The position numbers and the translations under genes were made by a program. This document shows, piece by piece, positions 10,201 through 16,200 of a stretch of DNA of 64,000 nucleotides. This stretch comes from Neelides folsomi (lineage: Eukaryota > Arthropoda > Collembola > Neelipleona > Neelidae): contig JAQGBZ010000016.1 in the NCBI GenBank assembly GCA_034687125.1, positions 397,298-461,297 of the forward strand, given 5' to 3'. Within the stretch, counting starts at the first letter, position 1. Each line of letters begins with the position of its first letter. The notes beneath the pieces are model-generated. The model saw only the letters and a list, made by a program, of their open reading frames with translations. It made no database searches and had not been told where the DNA came from.

Positions 10201-13200
10201 GAATGCTAACCGAGAATAAGCAATTAAGTAGTTGGCGAATGTTGAGCGGAATCGTGTTGTCTGTAGTGTCAATGTCCTTGGCGAACCTGTTGACAACCCT
10301 TCCCAAAGGAGTCGTATCAAAGAATGACATAGGCGATTTAAGGATACGTTCGAGCATTCCATCATGAAGAATTCTACCAGCGTTTAGAGAGCCAATAGCC
10401 ATCACAATCGTGGCGACCATAACCGACACAGCTTGAGTATGAGAGAATAAAAGCATGTAAGGTGTATTTATAGGAAATAAGCATTTGCTCAAACAAAAGA
10501 TTTAGAAATTACCTTGGCCGGCTCCTAAACCTCCATAAACACCCAAATACATATCACGATCAGATGTCGAAATTGGGATCGTTTCATTATCTGAACTGCT
10601 GTCTGCCCAAGCAGATAGCCAAATATTCGAACCAACGGCAAATCCTATTAAAATTAATCCCATTAATAAAGATCTAACCAATATCAATTTGAAGATTTAA
10701 TCACACTATCACCCATAGCTACACAATTATGTCTTGGTAATACATTACCTTGATAGATTAAATGAAAGAGAATTGTTAGGAAGGTCATGTTCCATCCAAT
10801 GGCTTTAATGTAGTACAAGTAAACTACTCCTTTCACACTTCCAGTTTCTGCCTTCTCAATTTCAATTAACTTATCTTTCGATGGAGCTTTTTTAATGCTC
10901 GATCTTTCCATTGATTTACTCAATTGACGAGCTGGACTTGCCTTACTAGAATCGCTCCCCTAATTATTAAAACAATTGCAATTAATAAAGATCCTTATTT
11001 AACAAGATTAAATTAGTTAAATTATTTTTTAAATTCATATGTTTTCGCTATATACATAAATATATTTAACTTCGTAATCGTATATATAAGTAGTAATTGA
11101 ATATATTGAATAACAATCAAATGATTAAAATTGTAAGATTTGTAGAAAAAAGCATACTTGTGAAATGATTGATCCTTGTCGTTTGAAAGAACCACTAAGC
11201 CCTTCACTTTCAGAAACTTTTGATCGCTGCCTCTTGAAGATTTCCTCTCTTGATCCGATAACTCCTTCCAATTCTTGGATCAACGACTCTTCATCTTCAT
11301 TATCTTCGTTCCCAATATGTTGGACAAGGAAATCGGCAAATGCTCCCTAATAAATAACAATATATTCTCGTTTATAAACAAATACAAAACATTTAAAATA
11401 ATTGAATACGAAACAATTAAGTTCAATAATTGGATTATTTCATAAACAGACCTTCTTTTCAAGTAATTCTCTGTATGTTCCTGTTTCAGAAATTTCCCCG
11501 TCTTTCATGACAATTATGTTGTCACATTGAGGTAAAAATATAATTCCGTGAGTGACGAGAAGTCGGGTTTTCTTTTTAAGTATTCCTTTAGGTCCAAGAA
11601 CCTTTTCAAAAATGTGTTTTCCAACATGTGAGTCAACGGCACTGAGAGGATCATCAAATATGTACAAATCCGTGTCAGAATACGTTGCCCTTGCAAGGGA
11701 AACTCGCTGCTTTTGACCCCCTGATAAATTAATTCCCTAAACAAACAAATTACAATTTGGTCAATTTTGTGTCTCTTTGACCAATAACCTCAATCTATAA
11801 ATCTATTATGTAAATTTATAAGTTTAGTTTAGATCTAAATTTGCTCAAAACCTTTTCTCCAATTTCTGTCTTATCTCCAGCGGGTAAAATTTCTAAGTCA
11901 GGTTTCAAGGCACAAGCGTCAACAACTTTATCATATTTGCTTGGATCGAAAGTTTGGCCAAAAAGTATGTTGTCCTTCAAAGTTGCATTTTGAATCCAAG
12001 CTTGCTGGGCCACATAAGCGATTGAACCCTGTTTTTAATAAATATAAGAAAATCTTAATTGAAATTAATATTGAGAAAGTAGTTATTATGTGAGATAATA
12101 AAAAGAACTTCAATTATAATGGCAGCTACTTATAGACAAAAGAATTAATGATAAACAAAAGTTGAAATTTGGAACATTTTGAAATGAACTATGAAATTTT
12201 GCTATGTAGCACAATAAATTTGAATAAAGAATTAAACCTTAGTATTGACTGTTCCAGATACTTTCTCGAGTTCTCCCAATAAAGAAGCGAGCAAAGATGA
12301 TTTTCCAGAACCAACAGTGCCTATTGAGCAAAACATTTCAAGAAATTACATATACTGCTTATAAAACAATTATTATTGAGAAAAAATACTAAATATAATT
12401 TTTATATTATAGTGAAATTACCGACAATGGCGACGAGACTTCCTTCTTCAACCTTGAAATTAATATTCTTCAAGACAGGTTCTCCAGCTTCCCAAGCAAA
12501 TGTACCATTTTCAACCACAACCGGATGAGCTGAAAACAAAATGTTTATATTATATTTATACCAATTTATGAGTTAAGGAATTATGAAATGTTTAAAATAA
12601 TAAATTCTTACTTTTGTTTTCTTCATGAGAAACTGAATTGGGATCAATTTCTTCTGCATTAAGGAATTTATTCAATCTATTCAAACTCACTTGGGCCTAT
12701 ATTCATTATTGGTCAATTTAGACAAAATTTATTTATTAAAATAATTTAAATGGCAATAAAGCAAATTATAAGCCAAAAGTGAGAGTGAAAAGGTTTACAA
12801 GGAGACTATAGTCAAGAATAAAGAATGGGATTAAATTGATTTAAAACATCGAGTTATCTTGTAGATATATAATACCTGAACGAAGCTGAAAAGAGGAGAA
12901 AGAAAACCAAGATTTCAAATATTGAAAAACGTGATCAAAATTAAACATTTACAAATAATTCATGTAAATACCTTGAGAGCATCATTGGAAGGACAGTGAG
13001 GGGAAAGCGAAGTATATTGAAGAGTGCGAGAGAAACAAATGCCTTTTGTGGAGTGAGAACATTCTTTTCCGAAGACAATACATACGTGGAAAAAGTCGTC
13101 ACAGCCACCTGTTCAAAAGCCCATCAAAGCTAACAGATTAACATTTTTTAGTGCAAACACATTCACATCATAAATATTTTAAATGAAAACTTTCATTTCT

Positions 13201-16200
13201 CCACATTTTGTAAAGTTAAATAAAATAAGTTCTAAATCAAAGTCAAAAGTTAGAAACACATTAGGATATTATAGAAATGGCCGTTTTTGTTTAGAAACCA
13301 GAAAATTAGAAAATTAATTAGCAAAATAAGCGCCAAGCTTGGTTGAGTATTGAAAACAAACGCACGGAAGTGACAAAAACGACCATCATTGGCAAAACAG
13401 ACATCGGCATCCTCATAATGTTGAACAAAGTGAGGGCAACGAATGCTTTCTCAGCCGTCAACACGTTCGTTTCATCAATCATCACGTAAGTTCCAAAAGT
13501 AACAAGGGAAACCTTAAGAAAACTCAAATGTACAACTTGGGTTCAAAATAGAAGAGACTGGTTTGGACTCTTTAGGAGATATTACTAAATATTAATCACA
13601 ATATACCTATATATCATTTTTATATTTATACTTATGAAATATATATGTTTAAATATATCATTTCACATATAAATATGTCAATGAAAAAGTAATAAATACT
13701 ATTTGTATATTGAATAAATGTTAAACATAAATTTAAGCAAAATAAGGGAAGGGAACCAGTCTCTTCTATTTTGAACCCAAGTTGTAAATGTAAAGTACTC
13801 AATTCATTAAATATAAGTATATAATGTATTAATTTATATACTCAAATTTAATATCTATCTAAAAATACAGAATATATATATATTTGGTTTTTTGAAAAAA
13901 ATTAGAAATTGTAAATCTATTTAGGTATGTATAACTATAACTTAAAACGATATTTATAAATTTGTAAGCTATCTAAATAAACAAATCGCTAAATGATAAA
14001 AAAATTAAAAATCAACATGCAAAAATTAAAATTTGTTAAATACCCATATCATTAATATAAGAATATTATTTTTTAAATAGCAAAACTTACGAGAAATGGC
14101 GCACATGTCCAAATGAATGAAGATCCGGCGTTTAGGTAGGCAATTTCTTTCAATACTTTAATTTCCTTCCCACGGATATTATGAACCTGTTTTTGGAAAG
14201 ATCTTTCCCAAGCATATAACTTCAAAACCTAATAAAATAAATATTAAAGCTTAATGAGAAAATTTGTAAATTATGTAATGCAACGAAATTAATTTCCTTA
14301 TTAAACTCATTTTTAATTTAAGCTTAACTGTAAAAAAATAATGTATTACTTTGATTCCGGAAAGAATTTCGTTCATAAGTTTGACTCTTTGATCCTTGTT
14401 CTTCATTTGACGAATTTGGAGCGCTTTCATTTTTGACGCAATGACGGCGTTAATTGGGATGAGAAGAATCATCACACCCACACCAGCAAGAACAGACGGC
14501 CCAAGGGTGTCCCAAAGGAAATAAAGAGAAAGGGCAATTTGAAGCGGTGCGCTCCAGAGCATATTGATGTAAGCAGTTAAGTCCATGAGCCTCTGAGCAT
14601 CCACACTCATCAAATTAACAATTTCCCCAATCGTCGATTCTGTTATAAAATGATATCCATCAAATATTAATCTCAAAAAATATAAATTATGTATGTTTCT
14701 GATTTTGGTTATTTATCGTAGGTTTATATAAGTTTATCAGGAAAAATAAATAAATTACCTTTTCGAGCGACGTTTGAAATCAAAAGAGATTTCCTATAAA
14801 TGGCGCTGACCAAAGTCGTCCGAATTCTCATTCCAATGAGAAACATTCTGTGAAAATACTGGGAAAGAAAGAATGTTTGAACCATCGAAGCGATAAATAG
14901 AATCAAAGCGTAGAGATAGCCCTTCCAATTCTCTTCTTCTGAATTGTTCACATGTGCAATCAAAAGGCTAAAAAACATCGAAACGCATTTATTTTTTTTA
15001 AAGTTAAATTAAATGAATCAATAACATACTTGAGGATTTGAGGAGAAACGAAAGTGAGAAGATCTTGGCACACTTTAAGCATTGCCCCAAAGAGAAAAGT
15101 TGGTCCAAATATTTTTACAAGAGTCGGAAGGACGCTGGCATTCTTTACTTTATCTTTGGATTTCTCAGTTTTAATATTCAATGAACCATTACTCTTTTCA
15201 AATGTTGCTTTCAAGTCAATGGCGCTGAAACAATTAAACATAGAAATATAAAAAAAATTAACTCATTTTAAAAATAATAATTAATTTGCGTACTAACATT
15301 AACTTTAAAATTAAACTGAACTAGTACTATTGTAAACAATATCTTTCGAGTATGATGAAAATGAAAATGAATCTTACGCTTTAGAAACTTTAAGCGATTT
15401 GTCCCAATGTTTATTAAAACCAGGGACGAGATTTCTCGATTTATCTTCGGGATTCAGATCCCATAGGTCTTTGGTATCTAATGGATTTCTATATCCTTTC
15501 CAAATGAACCCTTCAAACCAGAAAAAGAGTAATTGGGATAAAAAGGACGAAGCAGTTTCTGGACATTGTTTCTATAAAAAAAACAATCCAATTAATTTTC
15601 TTGATATGATTAAAAAAACTTATTACTAATGTAATTGTAAGGATCACTGCATATTTAGAAATCAAATGAATAGTAAATTACATCAATGTTTTGTGCAGGT
15701 ACAGGAGTTTGATGTTGATATTGATACAAAGGTGCAGCATCGGCCCAACAATTAAGTAAAAATACTCCCACAAGAATCGGGAAATAAGCCATATGTGTCA
15801 CAAAGAATAAAATCGGGTCCTCGGGATTCTAATTTGTAAGATATTTAAAATGTTACATCATTAAATTCTTTCTTAAATCATTAATTTACTCATTGTCGAA
15901 ATAATATTTTACCATAATTGAAGTTCTAAATCCAAATGCTTCACAGAGAACTATCGCCATCCAAAAAATAAATTGAACGCCTGAGGATCGGACGCCATGA
16001 ATTTTCCCAAACAAAACCAGAAACAGTGATAAACCCTTGAATAAAAACAAACACAATTCTCACCAATACATTATATTTATATCATCGTCCTCATCCTTAA
16101 GCTAAATACCTAGTTAAATATATAGTAATATATGTATAATTGTTATAATACTTTAATTTCATTAAATGTATGTATTTTTGTATACATAATAAATACATAT

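Follow-up and report, generated by a model that had tools for sequence, protein, structure and literature searches.

A probable 10-nt microexon completes one of two homologous, alternative-type exons in an MRP1-type transporter gene of Neelides folsomi

The genome of the collembolan Neelides folsomi carries an ABCC1/MRP1-type transporter gene in which two homologous internal exons, here called A and B, appear to be alternatives that end in different phases. We analyzed this gene within a 64,000-nt stretch of DNA, hereafter the window (GenBank assembly GCA_034687125.1, contig JAQGBZ010000016.1, positions 397,298 to 461,297), where it lies on the minus strand from ~16.5 kb down to below 8.1 kb. 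Exon B stops inside a codon and, in our judgement, is very probably completed by a genuine microexon of 10 nt, CTTCGTTCAG. Our preferred reading, to which we assign a probability of about one half, is a cluster of the mutually exclusive type, in which B plus the microexon forms the standard, composite 147-nt exon and A is a minor form or a fading copy. The half of this finding that concerns exon B and the microexon holds well. The half that concerns exon A is weaker, and A would be a weak alternative under regulation or else a copy that is eroding.

An earlier sequence-only reading of the window had proposed that the next exon is joined either by A alone or by B together with the microexon. 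Its coordinates and lengths are correct: A occupies 13512-13366 and thus 147 nt, B has 137 nt at 13108-12972, the microexon has 10 nt at 12885-12876, and the next exon starts at 12696. Overall, we find that its observation is partly confirmed and its interpretation partly supported, as set out below.

Results

Exon B and the microexon together encode 49 residues, which align with bovine MRP1 without a gap through the splice junctions and are identical to it at 33 of the 49 positions. The tail encoded by the end of B and the microexon reads SSFVQ, where bovine MRP1 has SSIVQ. Splice sites were scored with small matrices of our own, on which the 21 constitutive donors of the gene, scored leave-one-out, range from 0.9 to 9.9. 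The donors of B and of the microexon each score 8.8 on this scale, and the pyrimidine tract of the microexon acceptor (17/17) is the highest among the 24 acceptors of the gene. When introns were shuffled with their base composition kept, an AG-10 nt-GT microexon with an equally good tail score was found in only 2 of 5000 cases. We also compared eight ways of joining the segment by their profile scores (the number after an exon letter is the exon length in nucleotides). B plus the microexon scored best, with 190.5 bits, followed by A147 (185.1), A155 plus the microexon (179.4), A138 (177.6), B156 (176.5), A129 (171.5), and A110 plus the microexon (163.2); a product with none of A, B, and the microexon reached 92.4.

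The end of the microexon (12885-12875) reads TTCAG/GTATTA (here and below, a slash marks a splice boundary), and use of the second AG could make it a zero-length ratchet site. Such use would omit the microexon and leave the frame of exon A unchanged.

The frame logic that had been claimed for the two exons stands in part. A joined to the next exon, and B joined to it through the microexon, both give open frames. Spliced at its strong donor, exon B needs the microexon, for without it a stop follows SRPK; the 147-nt exon A must not take it, as the joined product runs into a stop after LRSGPSEFE. The further claim, that the choices must be coupled or mis-spliced products be destroyed, is true of B alone and of A147 plus the microexon. 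It does not extend to A plus B plus the microexon or to the omission of all three, both of which keep the frame, and joins between the weak phase-2 sites of A and the microexon are likewise in frame. Nonsense-mediated decay could clear some splicing errors, not all. It cannot enforce exclusivity, because double inclusion and the skipping of everything stay in frame.

A gene model with exon B, the microexon, and one copy (C) of a second exon pair comprises 24 exons and 1353 codons, all open; neither terminal exon of the gene is part of it. Over these 1353 residues it scores 1677.2 bits against the MRP equivalog profile TIGR00957, which has a curated cut-off of 1470. At the end of transmembrane domain 1 (TMD1), the predicted product aligns with solved bovine MRP1 without gaps, both in the form with B and the microexon and in the form with A. 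On this evidence, we identify the gene as an ABCC1/MRP1-type transporter.

Exon A has a conserved body and a divergent end. Over the first 44 codons, 27 of 44 residues are identical to those of B, and 17 of these 27 use different codons. Identity between the two exons over this stretch is 0.55, 0.89, and 0.34 at codon positions 1, 2, and 3, respectively, with a nonsynonymous distance (dN) of 0.35; the synonymous distance (dS) was not computable and is read as saturated. Against bovine MRP1, exon A matches at 25 of 44 residues. Judged from these comparisons, A and B stem from an old duplication and have been constrained at the protein level over 44 codons. The last five codons of A, in contrast, encode VFVTS, which has 0/5 residues in common with either B (SSFVQ) or bovine MRP1 (SSIVQ), and 3/15 bases in common with B. 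If sites are assumed to be independent, the chance of such a mismatch at the exon's own rates is 0.009 for residues and 0.002 for bases. The last residue of the segment is Q in MRP1 and B, and S in A. It is E in 5/5 paralogous ABCC loci with aligned tails (L003, L007, L009, L013, and L010/L015), these tails having been aligned to a typed human fragment, in some cases weakly, while two of the seven paralogs (L004 and L014) gave no tail.

The acceptor of exon A scores a reasonable 5.1. The donor assumed for it at 13365 (TCC/GTGCGT) scores -3.2, below all 21 constitutive donors, and 89% of the 417 GT sites in the gene region score at least as high. The sequence-only reading had exon A join the next exon in frame; the open frame is there, and A147 keeps exactly 49 residues, but the donor has no recognizable signal and the homology of the tail is lost. 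Exon A could be joined to the microexon in frame from phase-2 GT sites at 13402 or 13357, giving 40 or 55 residues. These sites have donor scores of 1.6 and -2.8 and profile scores of 163.2 and 179.4 bits, respectively, compared with 185.1 for A147. We also searched the A-B intron for a microexon belonging to exon A itself, combining GT donors 100 to 174 nt into A with AG...GT microexons of 3 to 59 nt lying at least 30 nt further on (GC donors were left out, and the known microexon with A was scored separately). Among the 10 products found, only the direct join of A147 gave 49 residues.

Two predicted RNA structures flank or overlap exon A. Upstream of its acceptor lies an element resembling a miniature inverted-repeat transposable element (MITE), which folds into a hairpin (z = -10.4; 0/100 shuffles as good). 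The element has copies at three other places in the genome (75 Mb in 840 contigs searched), with identities of 96% over 253 bp, 98% over 122 bp (at a contig end), and 99% over 81 bp. In the three copies with readable ends, the flanking sequences are not alike, and every end starts with TA. The high identity of the copies suggests that the insertion is young. At the other end of exon A, a stem is predicted between the exon end and the following intron, with donor 13365 between its arms (z = -2.31, 5/200 shuffles as good; a simple stem score reached by 0/60 shuffles). The candidate donors 13383, 13380, and 13374 lie inside this stem, and donor 13365 itself, though paired in the minimum-energy fold, is unpaired in the centroid.

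The segment that would be swapped corresponds to residues 560-608 of full-length MRP1 (chain numbering of the alignment), which we take to be the region of transmembrane helix 11. In MRP1 numbering, exon B keeps R593, F594, P595, S604, and S605, whereas A has M594, V604, and F605. Residues 593-595, 604, and 605 are presumably in helix 11 and affect substrates, with the helix lining the substrate pocket. A second alternative-type pair, C and D, lies in transmembrane domain 2 (TMD2). The two copies have equal length and phase, with donors of 2.0 and -0.6 and acceptors of -1.2 and -1.9 in our matrices. If the A/B choice were combined with a C/D choice, four isoforms would be possible.

Table 1. 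Features of the A/B cluster and of the second exon pair (window coordinates).
Feature	Position	Strand	Basis
Constitutive exon upstream of the A/B cluster	14091..14228	-	Reading frame and MRP1 alignment
MITE-like element with terminal inverted repeats of 36 nt, lying 15 nt before the A acceptor	13528..13789	-	Arms 97% complementary; genome copies
Putative alternative exon A, 147 nt with donor 13365; homologous to B and MRP1 over first 132 nt only	13366..13512	-	Frame and alignment; weak donor
Predicted stem arm at 3' end of exon A, 14 nt, 13 paired	13373..13386	-	Fold
Intronic arm of the same stem; A donor 13365 between the arms	13277..13290	-	Fold
Putative alternative exon B, 137 nt; last codon incomplete, with two bases (MMLS + AG)	12972..13108	-	Reading frame, MRP1 alignment, gene model
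Intron between B and microexon, 86 nt	12886..12971	-	Gene model
Microexon, 10 nt; completes S, then adds FVQ	12876..12885	-	Frame, splice scores, MRP1 alignment
Constitutive exon downstream of the A/B cluster	12612..12696	-	Reading frame and MRP1 alignment
Copy C of second alternative-type pair, TMD2, 221 nt	10211..10431	-	Frame, gene model
Copy D of second alternative-type pair, TMD2, 221 nt	9614..9834	-	42/74 residues identical to C

Elsewhere in the window, open reading frames inspected by eye resemble a glycogen synthase (about 26.7-30.2 kb), an LDL-receptor/Ig protein of perlecan-like type (23.2-24 kb), and a LIM-domain protein (3.3-4 kb). In the genome as a whole, TTAGG arrays gave 28 overlapping matches on 6 contigs, compared with 0 for a reversed control, and a search for TTAGGC arrays gave 0. 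The COI of this genome is 75% identical to fly COI over 262 residues. Together, these features mark the genome as that of an arthropod.

Discussion

It is very improbable that the microexon is a chance match and that B uses an in-frame donor of its own without it. The sequence-only reading had pointed to another frame-keeping donor of B as evidence that would speak against the microexon, and such a donor does exist (TTT/GTAAAT, at 156 nt). However, it scores 1.6 as against 8.8, and the resulting join (176.5 as against 190.5) is 14 profile bits lower and adds three residues that do not align; the rarity of chance microexons in the shuffled introns argues against the idea as well. Exon A could be a dying duplicate that has lost its 3' end and donor and has received a mobile element at its acceptor, so that only B plus the microexon is made, and we regard this as a real possibility, somewhat short of an even chance. 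The poor donor, the vanished tail homology, and the hairpin-forming element 15 nt from the acceptor, 96 to 99% like its three other copies, all fit such decay, whereas 147 nt with no stop, an alignment to MRP1 with no gap, and an acceptor that still scores 5.1 do not, and the stem at the 3' end would be unexpected. Only slightly less likely, in our view, is a fully functional pair, with A alone (donor 13365) and B plus the microexon both in regular use and coupled by regulation. Exon A has an open frame and is conserved over 44 codons, its 49-residue form is the best A join by profile, weak donors also occur at the other alternative-type exons of the gene (C, 2.0; D, -0.6), and the stem covers the nearer candidate donors. 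Nevertheless, the donor of A is no better than random GT sites and is itself paired in the minimum-energy fold, if free in the centroid, and all five tail residues are lost, including the last one, where MRP1 and B have Q and the five aligned paralogs, some of them weakly aligned, have E. More speculative still, and improbable, is a living exclusive pair with mismatched phases that swaps a pocket-lining helix, the end of A having been rebuilt, through selection on RNA and not on protein, as one arm of a stem that hides wrong donors. The dying-duplicate and functional-pair explanations overlap with our preferred reading, which leaves the use of A open, and the confidences given to them need not sum to one.

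Under our preferred reading, with B plus the microexon as the standard exon, splicing might proceed as follows. Ordinary exon definition would have little space to act on an exon of 10 nt. The strong donor of B and the pyrimidine-rich acceptor of the microexon would pair across the 86-nt intron by intron definition, and this intron would be removed early. The composite exon would then use the strong donor of the microexon. Where B is not used, the microexon would have no partner across a short intron and would be passed over along with B. Exon A, with its conserved body and poor 3' end and donor, would need an activator or be on its way out. The only safe stepwise order is to join B and the microexon first, because removal of the downstream intron first gives A147 joined to the microexon, with loss of frame. 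We infer this order of intron removal, the use of A, and exclusivity from sequences, frames, homology, and splice scores that were read directly. For the 1-nt exon of APC11, intron definition has been argued, with the flanking introns removed successively (PMC4674806).

Several points weigh against this reading. The acceptor of the microexon scores only -0.8 in our matrix, which was trained on 21 mostly A/T-rich sites, and thus falls under the lowest leave-one-out score of those sites (-0.2); this low score would also suit a chance match. Exon A is stop-free over 147 nt and ungapped against MRP1, and A147 is the best of the five A joins, which together suggest that A is, or recently was, used with that end. 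No unusual pairing was found between introns of the cluster (10 pairs, |z| ≤ 1.05, 60 shuffles each, element left out) in a scan for docking and selector sequences that drew on one genome and hence on no covariation. For the constitutive 4-nt exon of MPC1, a study concluded that the flanking intron sequence brings about splicing by exon definition (PMC9929638); if the same applied to this gene, inclusion of the microexon would not depend on B and the proposed mechanism would fail. In potato invertase, the second intron goes first (cited in PMC4674806), an order that in this gene would put A147 next to the microexon, with loss of frame.

The origin of the split exon can be read in more than one way. 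The sequence-only reading had suggested that the last bases of B were split off by an intron gained after the duplication, or the reverse in A. A split of exon B is plausible, but the sequences do not place an intron gain after the duplication, as the nonhomologous tail of A fits a split ancestor, a rebuilt A end, or an intron gain in B equally well. In human ABCC2, the corresponding exon 13 is a single, undivided exon of 147 nt, which would favor an intron gain in B and make an unsplit ancestor the simpler assumption. We would give only a small chance to an ancestral exon already divided into 137 and 10 nt, of which the first part alone was duplicated, 10 nt of intronic sequence later becoming coding in A as an exact substitute for the microexon. 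The homology of A breaks off at nt 132, no more than 5 nt from the point where B meets the microexon (nt 137), as this history would have it; against it, the tail of A looks unlike the start of B's intron by eye. The paralog L003, which we take to be ABCC10-like, was tried as an outgroup for the intron; its sequence is uninterrupted at this point, but introns at other sites lie close by, and the locus is too far removed to polarize the change. A search with 310 residues of the protein gave no retrocopies with spliced junctions among its 33 matches, and those outside the window's contig had identities of at most 55%, only the best candidates having been scored. The A-B intron and the stretch from B to the next exon matched only themselves in our searches.

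Two variable internal exons were reportedly described in Drosophila MRP by Grailles in 2003. Tandem alternative exons are known from the MRP gene of Drosophila and from mrp-1 of Caenorhabditis elegans (PMC9741552, PMC6071210), and MRP exons have been duplicated independently across phyla (PMC6071210). The N. folsomi cluster resembles those of flies and nematodes in that tandem duplicated internal exons of the same gene family appear as alternatives. It differs in that the homologous exons described there are interchangeable (PMC9741552, PMC6071210), whereas A and B end in different phases and one of them needs an extra 10-nt exon. The WebScipio definition of mutually exclusive exons demands equal frame and similar splice sites (PMC3228551). 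A and B agree with such pairs in being neighboring, homologous (27/44 residues identical), of similar coding length (147 versus 137 + 10 nt), and of the same 5' phase. They disagree at the 3' end, where the phase is 0 for A (at 13365) and 2 for B, and the donors are also dissimilar (-3.2 versus 8.8). A search of the WebScipio type would therefore be expected to miss this pair or to place its end wrongly.

Other systems share single features with the cluster. The tiny exons of MPC1 (4 nt; PMC9929638) and APC11 (1 nt; PMC4674806) are also critical for the frame, but they are constitutive, whereas the exon found here would serve only one of two alternatives. The neural microexons of flies that depend on the eMIC domain of Srrm likewise combine a very short exon with short flanking introns and a strong upstream donor; they have extremely weak 3' and weak 5' splice sites (PMC8797185), in contrast to the 17/17 tract and the 8.8 donor seen here, though the acceptor score of -0.8 is low. 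In Daphnia myosin, the introns after two alternative exons start with GT and GA (PMC2257972), so that a poor donor at one member of such a pair is not without parallel. In the passages of PMC5896119, PMC2257972, and PMC3228551 consulted, we recognized no precedent for a split alternative exon, though one may exist.

Should both forms be produced, the locus would show that exclusive exons can differ in 3' phase and that an intron can lodge within one alternative and leave the switch intact; searches restricted to pairs of identical phase could then be expected to overlook such cases. The microexon would also offer a sharp test of the order in which introns next to so small an exon are removed, since the frame survives in one order and is lost in the other. 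If A is dying, the locus would instead exemplify the loss of an alternative exon in a gene family in which gains of such exons are known. Provided that A is used, the phase-mismatched layout described here would be a variant of the alternative tandem exons familiar from MRP genes.

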